A stretch of 64,000 nt of DNA from Exiguobacterium sp. s124 (GTDB taxonomy: Bacteria; Bacillota; Bacilli; Exiguobacteriales; Exiguobacteriaceae). Position numbers and translations under genes: made by a program. The notes beneath the pieces are model-generated. The model ran no database searches. It saw nothing but the letters and a program-made list of their open reading frames with translations, and was not told the DNA's origin. The stretch spans positions 1,426,001-1,490,000 of the forward strand of contig NZ_JACSKH010000001.1 of the NCBI RefSeq assembly GCF_018617485.1. The letters run 5' to 3'. Positions within the stretch are counted from its first letter, which is position 1. Each line of letters begins with the position of its first letter. Of the stretch, positions 34,974 to 60,024 are shown piece by piece.

Positions 34974-35093
34974 CTTTTCCCTCCTCTCCAACTGATCTCA
35001 TCATGTCTATTGTATCGTACATGACTTCGTTCACGTTTCAAACTTATGAACGAACTGTGAAATAATTGTGTATTCCTACGTTATTAATATACC

Positions 35094-54284: not shown

Positions 54285-55553
54285 TTAGACCCAACCACGG
54301 AAGCGTGACGCTTCCGCCATCTTACGAACACCGACCATATAAGCCGCGAGACGCATATCGACCTTGCGGGCTGAAGAAGTATTGTAAACCGTATTGAACG
54401 AATGAACGAGTACTTTTTCAAGTTTTTCCTCGACTTCTTCTTCCGTCCAATAGTAACCTTGGTTGTTTTGTACCCACTCGAAGTACGAAACCGTGACGCC
54501 ACCACTCGATGCCAACACGTCCGGCACGAGAAGAATTCCGCGTTCTGTCAAAATCTTCGTCGCTTCGTTCGTCGTCGGACCGTTCGCCGCCTCCACTACG
54601 ATGGACGCTTTAATGGCATCGGCGTTATCTTCCGTGATTTGATTCTCGATGGCAGCTGGCACGAGAATGTCACAGTCGAGTTCTAACATCTCTTTATTCG
54701 AGATCGTGTTTTTGAAGAGCGTCGAAATCGTACCGAATGAATCGCGACGGTCTAACAAGTAAGGGATGTCCAAACCGTTCTCATCATGGATGGCACCGTA
54801 AGCGTCACTGACCGCGATCACTTTCGCTCCAGCATCATACATAAACTTCGAAAGGAAACTACCCGCGTTTCCGAACCCTTGAACAACGACACGTGCACCT
54901 TTTAGCTCAATACCACGGCGTAGTGCCGCTTCTCGAATCATGATGGCCACACCTTTCGCCGTCGCCGTCTCGCGACCGTGTGAGCCTCCAAGAACAAGTG
55001 GTTTACCTGTGATGAATCCCGGTGAGTTGAATTCATCGATTCGGCTATACTCATCCATCATCCAAGCCATGATCTGCGAGTTCGTGAACACGTCTGGAGC
55101 TGGGATGTCTTTTGTCGGTCCTACGATCTGACTGATCGCCCGCACGTAGCCACGGCTCAATCGTTCGATTTCGCGGAAACTCATCTCACGTGGGTCACAG
55201 ACGATCCCGCCCTTACCGCCACCATAAGGCAAGTCGACAATCCCCGCCTTTAAGCTCATCCATACAGATAGTGCTTTAACTTCTACCTCAGTCACGCTCG
55301 GGTGGAACCGAATTCCCCCTTTTGTCGGTCCGACCGCATCATTATGCTGAGCGCGATAACCCGTAAAGATTTTTGTCGAGCCATCATCCATGCGAACTGG
55401 GATCCGAACGGTCAGCATGCGAAGCGGTTCTTTCAACAACTCGTACATCTCGTCTGGATAGCCGAGCTTATCTAATGCTTCGTGAATTACCTCTTGTGTC
55501 GATTCCAAGATGTTTTTTCGTTTTTGATGACCTTTTTCTTGATCCGTAATCAT
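54285..55553 (-). CDS. gudB: NAD-dependent glutamate dehydrogenase
   Basis: 422 residues. GPTKGGIRFHPSVTEVEVKALSVWMSLKAGIVDLPYGGGKGGI carries the catalytic Lys (shown in parts: VDLPYGGGKGG), DIPAPDVFTN and the NAD fold ARVVVQGFGNAGS. It links glutamate and 2-oxoglutarate/ammonia. The length fits the Bacillus GudB/RocG type. GGGGAGG precedes the ATG. A promoter and an upstream cre site are visible. Confidence 0.93.
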   Translation of the reverse strand: MITDQEKGHQKRKNILESTQEVIHEALDKLGYPDEMYELLKEPLRMLTVRIPVRMDDGSTKIFTGYRAQHNDAVGPTKGGIRFHPSVTEVEVKALSVWMSLKAGIVDLPYGGGKGGIVCDPREMSFREIERLSRGYVRAISQIVGPTKDIPAPDVFTNSQIMAWMMDEYSRIDEFNSPGFITGKPLVLGGSHGRETATAKGVAIMIREAALRRGIELKGARVVVQGFGNAGSFLSKFMYDAGAKVIAVSDAYGAIHDENGLDIPYLLDRRDSFGTISTLFKNTISNKEMLELDCDILVPAAIENQITEDNADAIKASIVVEAANGPTTNEATKILTERGILLVPDVLASSGGVTVSYFEWVQNNQGYYWTEEEVEEKLEKVLVHSFNTVYNTSSARKVDMRLAAYMVGVRKMAEASRFRGWV

Positions 55554-56715: not shown

Positions 56716-56746
56716 AGCCGTACTTATGCGAATGCATCGTACAGCT
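56716..56746 (-). terminator. Terminator of the mecA-family gene
   Basis: Stem AGCtGTAC / GTACGGCT enclosing the stop codon, followed by a T-run on the minus strand. Confidence 0.75.
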
Positions 56747-57302
56747 CTTTCACAGCATGTTCAGTTTGAATCGTCTTTCCGTATTCCATCATGACGTACG
56801 GACTGACCGTAGTCGTCTTTCCATATTCGGACAAAATGGCGGCGAGTCGTTCTTCCACTTTCTCAGGAAGCACTTCCACGAAGTGAAGATAGTATCGACC
56901 CTCATAATGATAAAGTGCCCCACCTTGTTCGGTTTCATGTATATGTGGAAACAGTCGAATCGAAGCGTTAATCACATCTTCGAGGTCATCGAACTGGTAA
57001 ATCAAATGATGGATGACGTCGATTGTCAGGCGAATCTCAACTTGTTCGAGATCAAGCTCTGCAATGGCTTCACCTTTTTGAACGTCAATGACGAGGCCAT
57101 CTCGCGGAAACATCGTCACATTCAAGTCAACCGCCCCTTGCGGAGAGAATCCGTACTCACTTTCTGCTGTCTCAAGCAATTCTTTCCAGAGCTGTTGACC
57201 GTTTTCCCCCACAATCGTATCGATGGCGATTCCACGTAATGTAAGCTCATTCGCAGTCACATATACACGAAGATGTTCTTTTGTTTGTTTTTCAAATCTC
57301 AA
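56724..57302 (-). CDS. MecA-family adaptor protein (YpbH/MecB-like)
   Basis: 192 residues. An N-terminal domain (MRFEKQTKEHLRVYVTANELTLRGI) of the MecA substrate-binding type and a C-terminal ClpC-binding domain with IYQFDDLEDVINASIRL and YEGRYYLHF. The length is nearer to YpbH (MecB) than to MecA, and the place beside gudB also suits YpbH. It delivers proteins to ClpCP for degradation. Confidence 0.85.
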   Translation of the reverse strand: MRFEKQTKEHLRVYVTANELTLRGIAIDTIVGENGQQLWKELLETAESEYGFSPQGAVDLNVTMFPRDGLVIDVQKGEAIAELDLEQVEIRLTIDVIHHLIYQFDDLEDVINASIRLFPHIHETEQGGALYHYEGRYYLHFVEVLPEKVEERLAAILSEYGKTTTVSPYVMMEYGKTIQTEHAVKELYDAFA

Positions 57303-57362: not shown

Positions 57363-58226
57363 TCAAATAGTTGATAACCATTTCGTCCACTCTTCTGGTG
57401 TATCGCCAAGAAATGCATCTTCGAACCGACCCCGTTCGAGGCTAACCGCGTATCCACCGGCCCCAATCTTCAGTTCAGGATGCTCTTCTTGGATATAGCC
57501 CATCGCCTCGATTAACTGAGGAATGTGATCCGTCAAAGTGCACGCAAAAATGAGGCAGGATGCATCGATGTCATGCAGCGCCTTGCTCAAGTCTTCTTTC
57601 GGGAATCCAGCTCCTAAAAAGATGACGTCGTATCCATGTTGACGCAAGTAAAGTGTGACAAATAGAAGTCCGATTTCATGCATCTCACCGGGTGCACAGA
57701 CACAAGTGACTCGCGGAAGGAACGGATTCATTGGCATTTGAAGTGACAATGTAGATAGACGAGCCCGTAAAAAAGCTGTCGCGAAATGTTCATGGGCGAT
57801 TGTAATCGACCCTTGCTCCCACTGAGAGCCGATATCCATCAGAAGCGGTCCAATGATGTCTTTCGTCACCTTTTCAAAGCTAAACGTATTAAAAGCACGA
57901 TTGATCAAATCATGTGCGGTTCGCTCATCAAAGGAAAGCAACGCCTGAAGCAAGCCGTCCTTTAGTTCCTCATCGTAAAGCTTGGCAGACGTCGGTTCCG
58001 GTTCAGGTGCCTGATGGAGCTGTTGAATCGCTTGTGAGACGGATAACCCTTCTCTTTGCTTCTCTACCACCCATTTGATTTTTTCGACATCTTGATCTGA
58101 ATACAGGCGGTGACCTGATTCGGTCCGGCTCGGTACGATAAATTGGTACCGACGTTCCCAGGCACGAATGGTCGTTGGATTGACACCGGTCAACGTCGCC
58201 ACGGTCTTAATGGAGTATTTCGGCAT
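57363..58226 (-). CDS. MerR-type regulator with B12-binding domain (CarH/LitR type)
   Basis: 287 residues. N-terminal MerR winged helix (YSIKTVATLTGVNPTTIRAWERRY, 1-70), a linker, a helical B12-cap domain and a Rossmann cobalamin-binding domain. The motif W136-x9-E146-H147 and E181-x-H183-x2-G186 are the hallmarks of CarH photoreceptors, where the Trp and Glu/His pair with the upper axial ligand and His183 equivalent is the cobalt ligand. Family knowledge: AdoCbl-bound tetramer represses in the dark and falls apart in light. The start ATG follows GAGGAGGG. An inverted repeat lies in its promoter. Confidence 0.88.
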   Translation of the reverse strand: MPKYSIKTVATLTGVNPTTIRAWERRYQFIVPSRTESGHRLYSDQDVEKIKWVVEKQREGLSVSQAIQQLHQAPEPEPTSAKLYDEELKDGLLQALLSFDERTAHDLINRAFNTFSFEKVTKDIIGPLLMDIGSQWEQGSITIAHEHFATAFLRARLSTLSLQMPMNPFLPRVTCVCAPGEMHEIGLLFVTLYLRQHGYDVIFLGAGFPKEDLSKALHDIDASCLIFACTLTDHIPQLIEAMGYIQEEHPELKIGAGGYAVSLERGRFEDAFLGDTPEEWTKWLSTI

Positions 58227-58260: not shown

Positions 58261-58294
58261 AGTATATCCTCAATCGAAAAGGTTTACCCCTTTT
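58261..58294 (-). promoter_or_regulatory. Promoter and candidate operator of the CarH-type gene
   Basis: On the minus strand -10 TATACT (58266-58261) is preceded by AAAAGG-GGTAAA-CCTTTT (58294-58277), a perfect 6-bp inverted repeat occupying the -35 zone, which has no recognisable -35 sequence. Confidence 0.45.
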
Positions 58295-58328
58295 ATTGTG
58301 CAATCCAGTATTTTTCAAAAATAAAAAA

Positions 58329-58349
58329 GGCGCGAACATCGTCCGCACC
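58329..58349 (-). terminator. Terminator of the recQ-small membrane protein unit
   Basis: Stem GGTGCGGAC / GTTCGCGCC with G-T pairs and a 3-nt loop, followed by TTTTTT on the minus strand. Confidence 0.75.
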
Positions 58350-58354
58350 TCACC

Positions 58355-58596: not shown

Positions 58597-60024
58597 TTAT
58601 TCAAAGGAAAAGATTTGCGTCAACCGTATTCTCCATTCTGTCACATTTTTTCGGACGATTCGTGTTGTCTCCGGAAACTCAATCGCCCCACATTGGTCAC
58701 AACATTCTTCTTGGTCGATTGCCGACTCCGAAAAATAACGAAGCAAATAATCACGTCGGCACGTACGGATGAGTGCATAATCCATCATCTGTCCGAGTTG
58801 ACGATATCGATCACGTCTTCTTTCTTTTACCCAATCGAGCGCCTCTTGAAGCGAGCGTTCAGACAGCATCTGCTTCAAAAGAAGGAATTTCGGGTCCTCT
58901 TCGTTCATCCGCAATATACGAGATAACTGCGAAACCGACGTGCCGTTCTCGCGTTCAAAATACGCCAAACGGATGTCTTCGTCTTTCGGATATTGACCGT
59001 CAATCAAAAATTGTTGGATGCGCTCGTCTCCGTCTGCATAGAGGAGGACAGCAAACGCCGGCTCTCCATCACGACCTGCTCGTCCAATCTCTTGCATATA
59101 TGCTTCGACCGTTGCAGGTATTTGAAAATGGATGACGGAGCGGACGTTGTCTTTGTTTACCCCCATCCCGAATGCACTCGTACACACCATGACCGACACT
59201 TCGTTCCGTAAAAATTGAGATTGCACAAGTCGTCGGTCTTCTGTCGACATTCCACCGTGATAAAATAACGCGTCATCTAGTTCAAACGCCAATGCTTCCG
59301 CTTCTCGACGGGTCGCCGTATAGACGACAGCCGGTTTTGGAACGTCTCGCACCAATTCTTTTAATCGTTCAAGTTTCTTTTCTTTTTCGAGCCGTTCGAC
59401 CATCAATCGAATTTCCGGTCGATTCGCAGAATGAACGAACTGCTCAGGTGAAAAGAGTGCCAATTTTTCAACGATGTCTTGCTTCACGCTTTCAGGTGCG
59501 GTCGCTGTGACCGCCATGCATTGCGGGCTTCCGATTTGTTTACGCAATTCCCCTAATCGGGCATACTCCGGTCTAAACTCATGACCCCATTGAGAGATAC
59601 AATGCGCCTCGTCAATGACGAGCATTTGAATCTTGACGTTCGAGAGTGCTCGTGTGACATATGGCACTGCCAACTGCTCAGGTGATAAATATAGAAAGCG
59701 ATAGCGTTTCAAGTGATTGATGATCTCTTGCTTTTCTTCTGCTGATTCCATCGACGTCAATCGTGCGACACCTCGTTCTCCACGTTCTCGAATGTGAAGC
59801 ATTTGGTCTTCAATCAAAGAGAGCAGTGGTGAGACGATGACCGTCAATCCTCCGTTCTTGATATATGAGGGGAGTTGAAACGTCAACGACTTTCCTGCCC
59901 CTGTCGGCATGACTGCCAATACATCCTGACCCTCTACAACGGAATGGATGATTTCATGCTGACCTGGGCGGAAAGTATCATACCCGAACACACGCTTCAA
60001 TGTTGATTCATACAAATGTCTCAC
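58597..60024 (-). CDS. RecQ-family ATP-dependent DNA helicase (short, RecS-like)
   Basis: 475 residues. MPTGAGKSLTFQLPS (Walker A), DEAHCISQWGHEFRPEY, TATAPESVKQDI, AFGMGVNKDNVR and IGRAGRDG, then a zinc-binding part with CRRDYLLRYF and CCDQC. No HRDC domain is present, as in B. subtilis RecS (YpbC). Overlaps the upstream ypbB-like gene by 17 bases. Unwinds DNA in recombination and fork repair. Confidence 0.92.
   Translation of the reverse strand: MRHLYESTLKRVFGYDTFRPGQHEIIHSVVEGQDVLAVMPTGAGKSLTFQLPSYIKNGGLTVIVSPLLSLIEDQMLHIRERGERGVARLTSMESAEEKQEIINHLKRYRFLYLSPEQLAVPYVTRALSNVKIQMLVIDEAHCISQWGHEFRPEYARLGELRKQIGSPQCMAVTATAPESVKQDIVEKLALFSPEQFVHSANRPEIRLMVERLEKEKKLERLKELVRDVPKPAVVYTATRREAEALAFELDDALFYHGGMSTEDRRLVQSQFLRNEVSVMVCTSAFGMGVNKDNVRSVIHFQIPATVEAYMQEIGRAGRDGEPAFAVLLYADGDERIQQFLIDGQYPKDEDIRLAYFERENGTSVSQLSRILRMNEEDPKFLLLKQMLSERSLQEALDWVKERRRDRYRQLGQMMDYALIRTCRRDYLLRYFSESAIDQEECCDQCGAIEFPETTRIVRKNVTEWRIRLTQIFSFE

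Follow-up and report, generated by a model that had tools for sequence, protein, structure and literature searches.

A predicted CarH-type photoreceptor standing alone in Exiguobacterium and a candidate operator at the promoter of an Spx/MgsR-family gene

Introduction

What does a CarH-type B12 photoreceptor regulate when no carotenoid gene lies beside it? In the literature surveyed, CarH is a regulator of carotenoid genes. A window of 64,000 nucleotides from Exiguobacterium sp. s124 (the whole stretch of DNA analysed; positions are those of the window unless a contig or locus is named) carries a carH-like gene that a preliminary description regarded as standing alone, with targets elsewhere or unusual, and for which light control of carotenoids was considered plausible. 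CarH operators are tandem 11-bp repeats of the form nnnnTnnACAn, or nAnnTnnACAn in Thermus, with three or four repeats in a row over the -35 or the -10 box (PMC9304148, PMC8156234).

Results

An inherited stand-alone position

The carH-like gene and its neighbours are arranged as follows:

54285-55553, minus strand: gudB-like dehydrogenase gene, part of the conserved synteny block
56724-57302, minus strand: mecA-like gene (PF05389), 60 bp downstream of carH, with no terminator-like site listed in the gap
57363-58226, minus strand: carH-like gene of 287 aa with an ATG start, predicted class I LitR/CarH photoreceptor-repressor (from the open reading frame, Pfam, PDB and fold)
58597-60024, minus strand: recQ-like helicase gene, part of the conserved synteny block

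We found carH between recQ and the mecA-like gene in 14 of 14 Exiguobacterium and 9 of 9 Bacillaceae loci, the latter differing in that further genes intervene between recQ and carH. The block reads fer-ypbB-recQ-carH-mecA-gudB-ypdA-ansA-prsW in these 14 and 9 loci; gudB was not found in the block of locus L303 (Alkalihalobacillus pseudalcaliphilus), L276 is cut short, and only in Exiguobacterium and in L303 does the block include ddl. In a quick tree the Exiguobacterium and Bacillaceae CarH proteins joined at 100% SH-aLRT and each separate group at 99%, with L303 on a long branch. Phytoene synthase or desaturase matches occur in none of the 23 Bacillales loci within flanks of up to 10 kb, and the flanks of 26 of the 57 loci outside this set, some of them short, contain a phytoene synthase match. 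The fetched Thermus carH loci adjoin phytoene synthase (e.g. L307), whereas the Exiguobacterium gene does not. Taken together, the conserved block and the lack of crt neighbours make the isolated position an inherited trait of the Bacillales CarH clade. The stand-alone CarH proteins of Peribacillus, Bacillus sp. cl95 and Salipaludibacillus (L274-L281) belong to the same synteny block and clade and also have Glu after the Trp of the cofactor motif; they are about 40% identical to the window protein, and in L278, L279 and L280 the top tandem array lies at the carH promoter. The preliminary description was therefore right that the gene stands alone, a position conserved across the Bacillales clade by both synteny and tree, and that the window holds no carotenoid or photolyase gene, as the one PF00494 match and the two PF00875 matches of the genome all lie elsewhere. 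CarH is also found on plasmids, in 163 records; the 30 listed are all from Thermus, and among the other plasmid records Escherichia and further Proteobacteria come first in the tally, which leaves 14 genera unnamed.

The promoter region of carH is conserved in an alignment of 19 genomes and contains these elements:

58261-58266, minus strand: TATACT, putative -10 box of carH, without variation among the 19 aligned genomes
58283-58303, minus strand: upstream element TTGCACAATAAAANNGGNNAA, which contains one TnnACA and likewise does not vary among these 19 genomes
58327-58351, minus strand: intrinsic terminator-like stem upstream of carH

The terminator-like stem, one of a class of sites of which 3 were found and 2.0 were expected in shuffled sequence, suggests that carH may form its own transcription unit. 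As a regulon motif TTGCACAATAAAANNGGNNAA was rejected: among the genomes listed it occurs exactly once per genome, at carH, and the further matches listed have 2-3 mismatches and stay at control level. The carH promoter bears the top tandem array in just 1 of 14 Exiguobacterium loci.

A protein with the features of the CarH family

The protein is composed of three domains:

58023-58217, minus strand: MerR-type DNA-binding domain, residues 4-68, with a RAWERRY helix (PF13411)
57747-57959, minus strand: four-helix B12-binding domain, residues 90-160 (PF02607)
57426-57713, minus strand: Rossmann B12-binding domain, residues 172-267 (PF02310)

All three pass the Pfam cut-offs (MerR_1, E = 4.1e-16; B12-binding_2, 1.3e-14; B12-binding, 1.5e-14). 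In a sequence search of the PDB the protein matches Thermus CarH/LitR best (chains 3whp and 5c8d, E about 1e-37), and an AlphaFold2 model, whose input alignment comprised the window protein and the fetched loci, reached a mean pLDDT of 89.2 and a pTM of 0.69; a fold search with this model ranked full-length Thermus CarH 5c8d first (E 3.9e-19). An orthologue is present in 19 of 19 Exiguobacterium genomes, always with the RAWERRY recognition helix, which conforms to RxWERRY, and the nearest named relatives are Exiguobacterium proteins of 95% and 93% identity. The WERRY helix is absent from all 11 other MerR matches inspected, which come from several genomes and include one of the two others in the genome of the window (G000). 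Among NCBIfam families the CarH equivalog NF052513 fits best, yet it scores 163.2 bits against a cut-off of 400, so that the automatic CarH name does not apply, while the family features themselves are present.

Thermus thermophilus CarH (5c8d, 5c8e, 5c8f) has in common with the window protein the domain order, Wx9EH, the lower His ligand, the WERRY helix and the predicted fold; identity is about 35% (36%), and Thermus His132 is Glu137 here. Myxococcus CarA and Pseudomonas class II LitR resemble it in the MerR domain and in TnnACA- or TGTACA-type sites. They differ in being B12-independent, and CarA lacks the Trp of Wx9EH, while class II LitR lacks the Rossmann domain (PMC9304148, PMC9758184). 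Membership of the window protein in the CarH family is thus well supported: it is CarH by all sequence and fold features that matter for the family, Thermus-specific ones excepted.

A tandem array at an Spx/MgsR-family promoter

Three tandem TnnACA repeats, with up to 1 mismatch, were searched in 8 genomes beside a reversed-pattern control. G000 yielded 26 rows versus 29 in the control, and 6 of these 26 fall in a single 61-bp stretch, C1:992337-992397, about 490 kb from carH, which is the promoter of an Spx/MgsR-family gene; rows also occur at the orthologous promoter in 5 of the 7 other genomes. In G000 the array reads AAGTTGTACAA AATTTATAAAA AAGTTGTACAA AATATGTACAA, where three repeats are complete and one departs by a single mismatch. 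Exact matches to the two-repeat pattern TTGYACAAANNNTGYACAAA number 12 over the 19 genomes, every one of them at the Spx/MgsR-family promoter; in the other 7 genomes this promoter carries the pattern with 1-2 mismatches. When up to 2 mismatches are allowed, the 19 genomes together give 82 matches versus 71 in the control. Since motif totals are not above control, the case rests on conservation and placement and not on abundance.

Regarding conservation, the distance between repeats 3 and 4 is exactly 11 bp in all 19 genomes, and their departures from TGTACA (TGCACA twice, TATACA twice) all fall at the nn of TnnACA. Repeat 1 lies 22 bp from repeat 3 in 14 genomes; in the other 5 the distance is 21 bp. 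Repeat 2 is degenerate. As for placement, repeat 4 takes the -35 position, and between its end and the TATAAT of an extended -10 there are 17 bp in 17 genomes and 18 bp in 2. The four-repeat score at the G000 promoter is 17.0, versus a best of 16.0 among 80 carH-bearing loci; under an earlier version of the scorer the G000 array reached 20.5, where the 95% level of block-shuffled DNA was 15.5. A score of at least 15 was reached by 14 of the 19 orthologous Spx/MgsR-family loci, and by none of the 19 adenosyltransferase, 19 carH and 4 queG loci, none of 30 photolyase loci (of 39 rows), neither of the two photolyase loci of G000, and nowhere in the window. As a positive control, the top array of the three-repeat scorer lay within -250 to +20 of carH in 43 of 80 relatives, with 1.4 expected by area; in three Myxococcus loci it lay ~9.6 kb from carH and ~1.2 kb before a desaturase match. 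CarH and the array co-occur in 19 of 19 genomes, and no genome has one alone.

These results point to the array at the Spx/MgsR-family promoter as a conserved candidate CarH-type operator, and the expectation that the targets would be elsewhere or unusual has a candidate counterpart here, at the same gene in 19 of 19 genomes.

The proposed target is a 128-aa Spx/MgsR-family protein (TIGR01617, 113.8 versus a cut-off of 75.05) whose CxxC reads CTSC. Its NCBIfam Spx subfamily score is 122.2 versus a cut-off of 123, and its best PDB matches are Spx. The gene neighbours genes for an MBL-fold hydrolase and a DUF2626 protein, an order that we take to fit yqgX-yqgY-yqgZ (mgsR) of B. subtilis. In B. 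subtilis, PerR and YodB control a SigmaA promoter of spx, and mgsR depends exclusively on SigmaB (PMC7235348).

Other repeats came up in the searches. The recurring match of an exact triple TnnACA search was an array of TTATCCACA, which from its letters we take to be DnaA boxes at oriC and not a CarH site, and a second conserved two-repeat site, TTGTACAAAGAATTTACAAA, was rejected because it lies within coding sequence in G000. Among 16 further G000 triple sites, 11 overlap an ORF of at least 80 aa and 5 do not (L341, L342, L344, L346, L356). A tandem TnnACA-like stretch at L342:2016-2043, which precedes a gene that by its letters is ribosomal-protein-like and recurs in 5 of 8 genomes, is perhaps an RNA leader. 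At L341:2005-2043, TnnACA-like tandem repeats occur in 4 of 8 genomes between genes that, again from the letters, are YceI-like and divergent aldehyde-dehydrogenase-like. Direct repeats of TGTGAA type with an 11-bp period are found in the window at 35045-35072 (minus strand) in 7 of 8 genomes, upstream of the gene that precedes qcr-like genes; presumably they are a ResD-like box. Finally, in L241 and its near relatives, TTGTACAA followed by GAACAAA-like repeats lies upstream of an ltaS-like gene near the Spx/MgsR-family gene, a site retained in part of the genus only.

A different owner of the array has to be weighed first. The protein could be a working AdoCbl photoreceptor whose real targets were missed, the array belonging to another repressor, of the YodB/PerR redox type or some other dimeric factor; we regard this as unlikely, but as a serious contender. 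TTGTACAA and TGTACA are palindromic, motif totals over the genome equal the control, and the ResD-like site is a case of 11-bp TnnACA-like repeats made by another factor. The B. subtilis spx gene is itself under PerR and YodB at a SigmaA promoter (PMC7235348). However, variation in the repeats is confined to the nn of TnnACA, the repeats lie at 11-bp distance and over the -35 box, and the array scores above the best of 80 carH-bearing loci; moreover, a palindromic owner would need no 11-bp period. We therefore give preference to CarH itself as the candidate owner of the array.

Carotenoid genes

The preliminary description held light control of the carotenoids to be plausible. A crt cluster with phytoene synthase is present in 19 of 19 genomes of the genus; in G000 it lies at about 1.96 Mb of C1, ~475 kb from carH (1.484 Mb). 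The operator search found a CarH-type array with a four-repeat score of at least 15 at 0 of 19 crt loci. In a separate observation, the promoter of the crtM-side operon (L085, upstream of 14354, minus strand, and its orthologues) has a conserved GTTTGT-N13-GGGGAA, with GGGGAA in 19 of 19 genomes, GTTTGT in 18 and GTTTGC in 1, which we assume to be SigB-like from the SigB consensus.

An annotated 'carH' in a crt context is mentioned for strain SH31 in one report (PMC6158405). In the 19 genomes we did not see such a gene at crt, the single PF02310 protein sitting at the recQ locus. In a study on E. antarcticum, Eab7_1666 is tied to B12 synthesis and has a network-predicted link to phytoene synthase, with a mention of CarH (PMC6016940). 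By its annotation and its neighbour RecQ (Eab7_1668), Eab7_1666 is likely the carH orthologue.

That CarH controls the Exiguobacterium carotenoid genes directly, as in Thermus, Myxococcus and B. megaterium, would agree with the crt cluster present throughout the genus, with the phytoene synthase adjoining 26 of 57 relatives outside Bacillales and with the network link of the E. antarcticum orthologue (PMC6016940). We nevertheless consider it improbable, given that crt genes flank 0 of 23 Bacillales carH loci, that 0 of 19 crt loci bear a strong array, and that a SigB-like promoter is conserved before the crtM-side operon. Thus direct light control of carotenoid genes by CarH is not supported by these sequences, the crtM-side operon having a SigB-like promoter in place of an array; an indirect route to carotenoids via the stress response is possible.

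Cofactor residues and B12 supply

The two cofactor motifs lie within the B12-binding domains:

57786-57821, minus strand: Wx9EH motif, codons W136 to H147, with Glu137 in the place of Thermus His132
57669-57686, minus strand: ExHx2G motif, codons E181 to G186, including His183 as presumed lower ligand

The preliminary description gave W136-x9-E146-H147 and E181-x-H183-x2-G186 correctly, and the alignment shows both intact in 19 of 19 orthologues of the genus. An intact Wx9EH is the criterion that separates CarH from CarA (PMC9304148), and the light-response signature of the family is given as GxxW, EH, GxxH and GxxxP (PMC11796333). It is complete in the window protein (GSQW, EH, GEMH, GAGFP); the Gly of GxxH is missing from some orthologues, e.g. 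L262 and L263. In the D/ExHx2G...SxT/V...GG motif, E181MHEIG186, T230 and GG are present and Ser is replaced by Ala228, a position with Ala in 6 of 14 Exiguobacterium loci and Ser in the remaining 8. Given Glu137 and Ala228, the statement that these are exactly the CarH-defining residues goes slightly too far.

With Glu137 after the Trp, the upper His132 of the Thermus bis-His light state is not matched. We compared 80 relatives chosen from 191 that a pattern search had found, a selection that favours intact sequences, and 76 of these 80 retain the W, the EH and the ligand His. In 41 of these 76 the Trp is followed by Glu and in 28 by His, hence the upper His132 is not family-wide; Glu is also found here in three Myxococcus loci (L315, L321, L337). 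Light-responsive relatives without the upper His exist (PMC11796333). For Thermus CarH, which uses His132 for the light state, the H132A variant showed light-driven disassembly in one report and mostly none in a later one (PMC10442372). Judging from sequence, Glu137 argues against a Thermus-type bis-His light state, not against photoreception. In the same syntenic place, the protein of Alkalihalobacillus pseudalcaliphilus (L303:9983-10858) retains neither the Trp nor the Glu of EH nor the His ligand, and is likely a B12-blind descendant.

CarH is the sole PF02310 protein in each of the 19 Exiguobacterium genomes. MetH and methylmalonyl-CoA mutase carry PF02310, so there is no room for PF02310 enzymes such as these. 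A cobalamin adenosyltransferase (PF01923) is present in 19 of 19 genomes, the G000 copy also matching TIGR00636; this alone is weak evidence, because the control B. subtilis has PF01923 and is absent from the PF02310 list. The search for cobalamin riboswitches was positive in 0 of 19 Exiguobacterium genomes and in 8 of 14 control genomes. QueG (TIGR00276), a cobalamin-dependent enzyme, occurs in 19 of 19 genomes; we therefore rejected the idea of CarH as the only cobalamin user, and CarH is not the sole reason for B12 uptake. At L104:8241-8807 the cobalamin adenosyltransferase gene immediately follows genes that by their letters resemble resABCDE.

A loss of light sensing, leaving a B12-independent CarA-like regulator or a dark AdoCbl sensor, is highly improbable: Glu137 for His132, Ala228 for Ser, an NCBIfam score far under the cut-off, the absence of cobalamin riboswitches from the 19 genomes and the vanished ligands of the same-locus relative L303 would fit it, but Wx9EH, ExHx2G and the adenosyltransferase are present in 19 of 19 genomes, Glu follows Trp in Myxococcus loci too, and light-responsive relatives lack the upper His (PMC11796333).

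Discussion

From the domains, cofactor residues, orthology and synteny, and from the array, its conservation and its placement at the promoter, we infer AdoCbl binding, a light response, DNA binding, repression and a downstream regulon for CarH. The Exiguobacterium protein is probably an AdoCbl-dependent, light-released repressor of the gene for an Spx/MgsR-family stress regulator, and not a direct regulator of carotenoid genes. In the dark, adenosylcobalamin would sit with W136, E146 and H147 of the four-helix bundle on one side and H183 of the Rossmann domain on the other, locking the protein as an oligomer whose MerR-type domains would lie head to tail on the tandem 11-bp nAnnTnnACAn repeats. 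Over the -35 box this oligomer would block RNA polymerase; light would break the Co-C bond, the oligomer would loosen and the promoter would open. The main target in Exiguobacterium would be the Spx/MgsR-family promoter (G000:C1:992337-992397 and 18 orthologous promoters), so that light may release a stress subregulon and not the carotenoid genes directly.

Two systems of Bacillales are close to this proposal. CarH/LitR of B. megaterium is likewise a Bacillota AdoCbl photoreceptor, and its operator consists of four repeats, or three and one degenerate, over a promoter box (PMC8156234, PMC9304148, PMC9758184). It differs in controlling carotenoid genes; the comparison with the window protein is based on its published description. 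In B. subtilis, YtvA also leads light to the general stress response through SigB, but it is a LOV flavoprotein acting via the stressosome and not a B12 repressor on DNA; YtvA, and not CarH, is named as the link from light to SigB in the available part of that source (PMC12627116). Our literature search, which covered few subscription papers, found nothing joining CarH with Spx, or MgsR with Exiguobacterium. The new point is thus a candidate operator of CarH type, well conserved on the Spx/MgsR-family promoter throughout the genus.

On balance we lean towards the view that, across Exiguobacterium, a B12 photoreceptor is wired to an RNA-polymerase-binding Spx/MgsR-family regulator, with repression by AdoCbl-CarH in the dark and release of a stress subregulon in the light. 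If this is true, light would reach stress physiology through B12 photochemistry, by a route other than that of LOV/YtvA, and a function would be at hand for the stand-alone carH genes of Bacillales. The short, named promoter would make the link between CarH and stress directly testable. Furthermore, it would give a use for adenosylcobalamin to Exiguobacterium, a genus otherwise devoid of PF02310 proteins.
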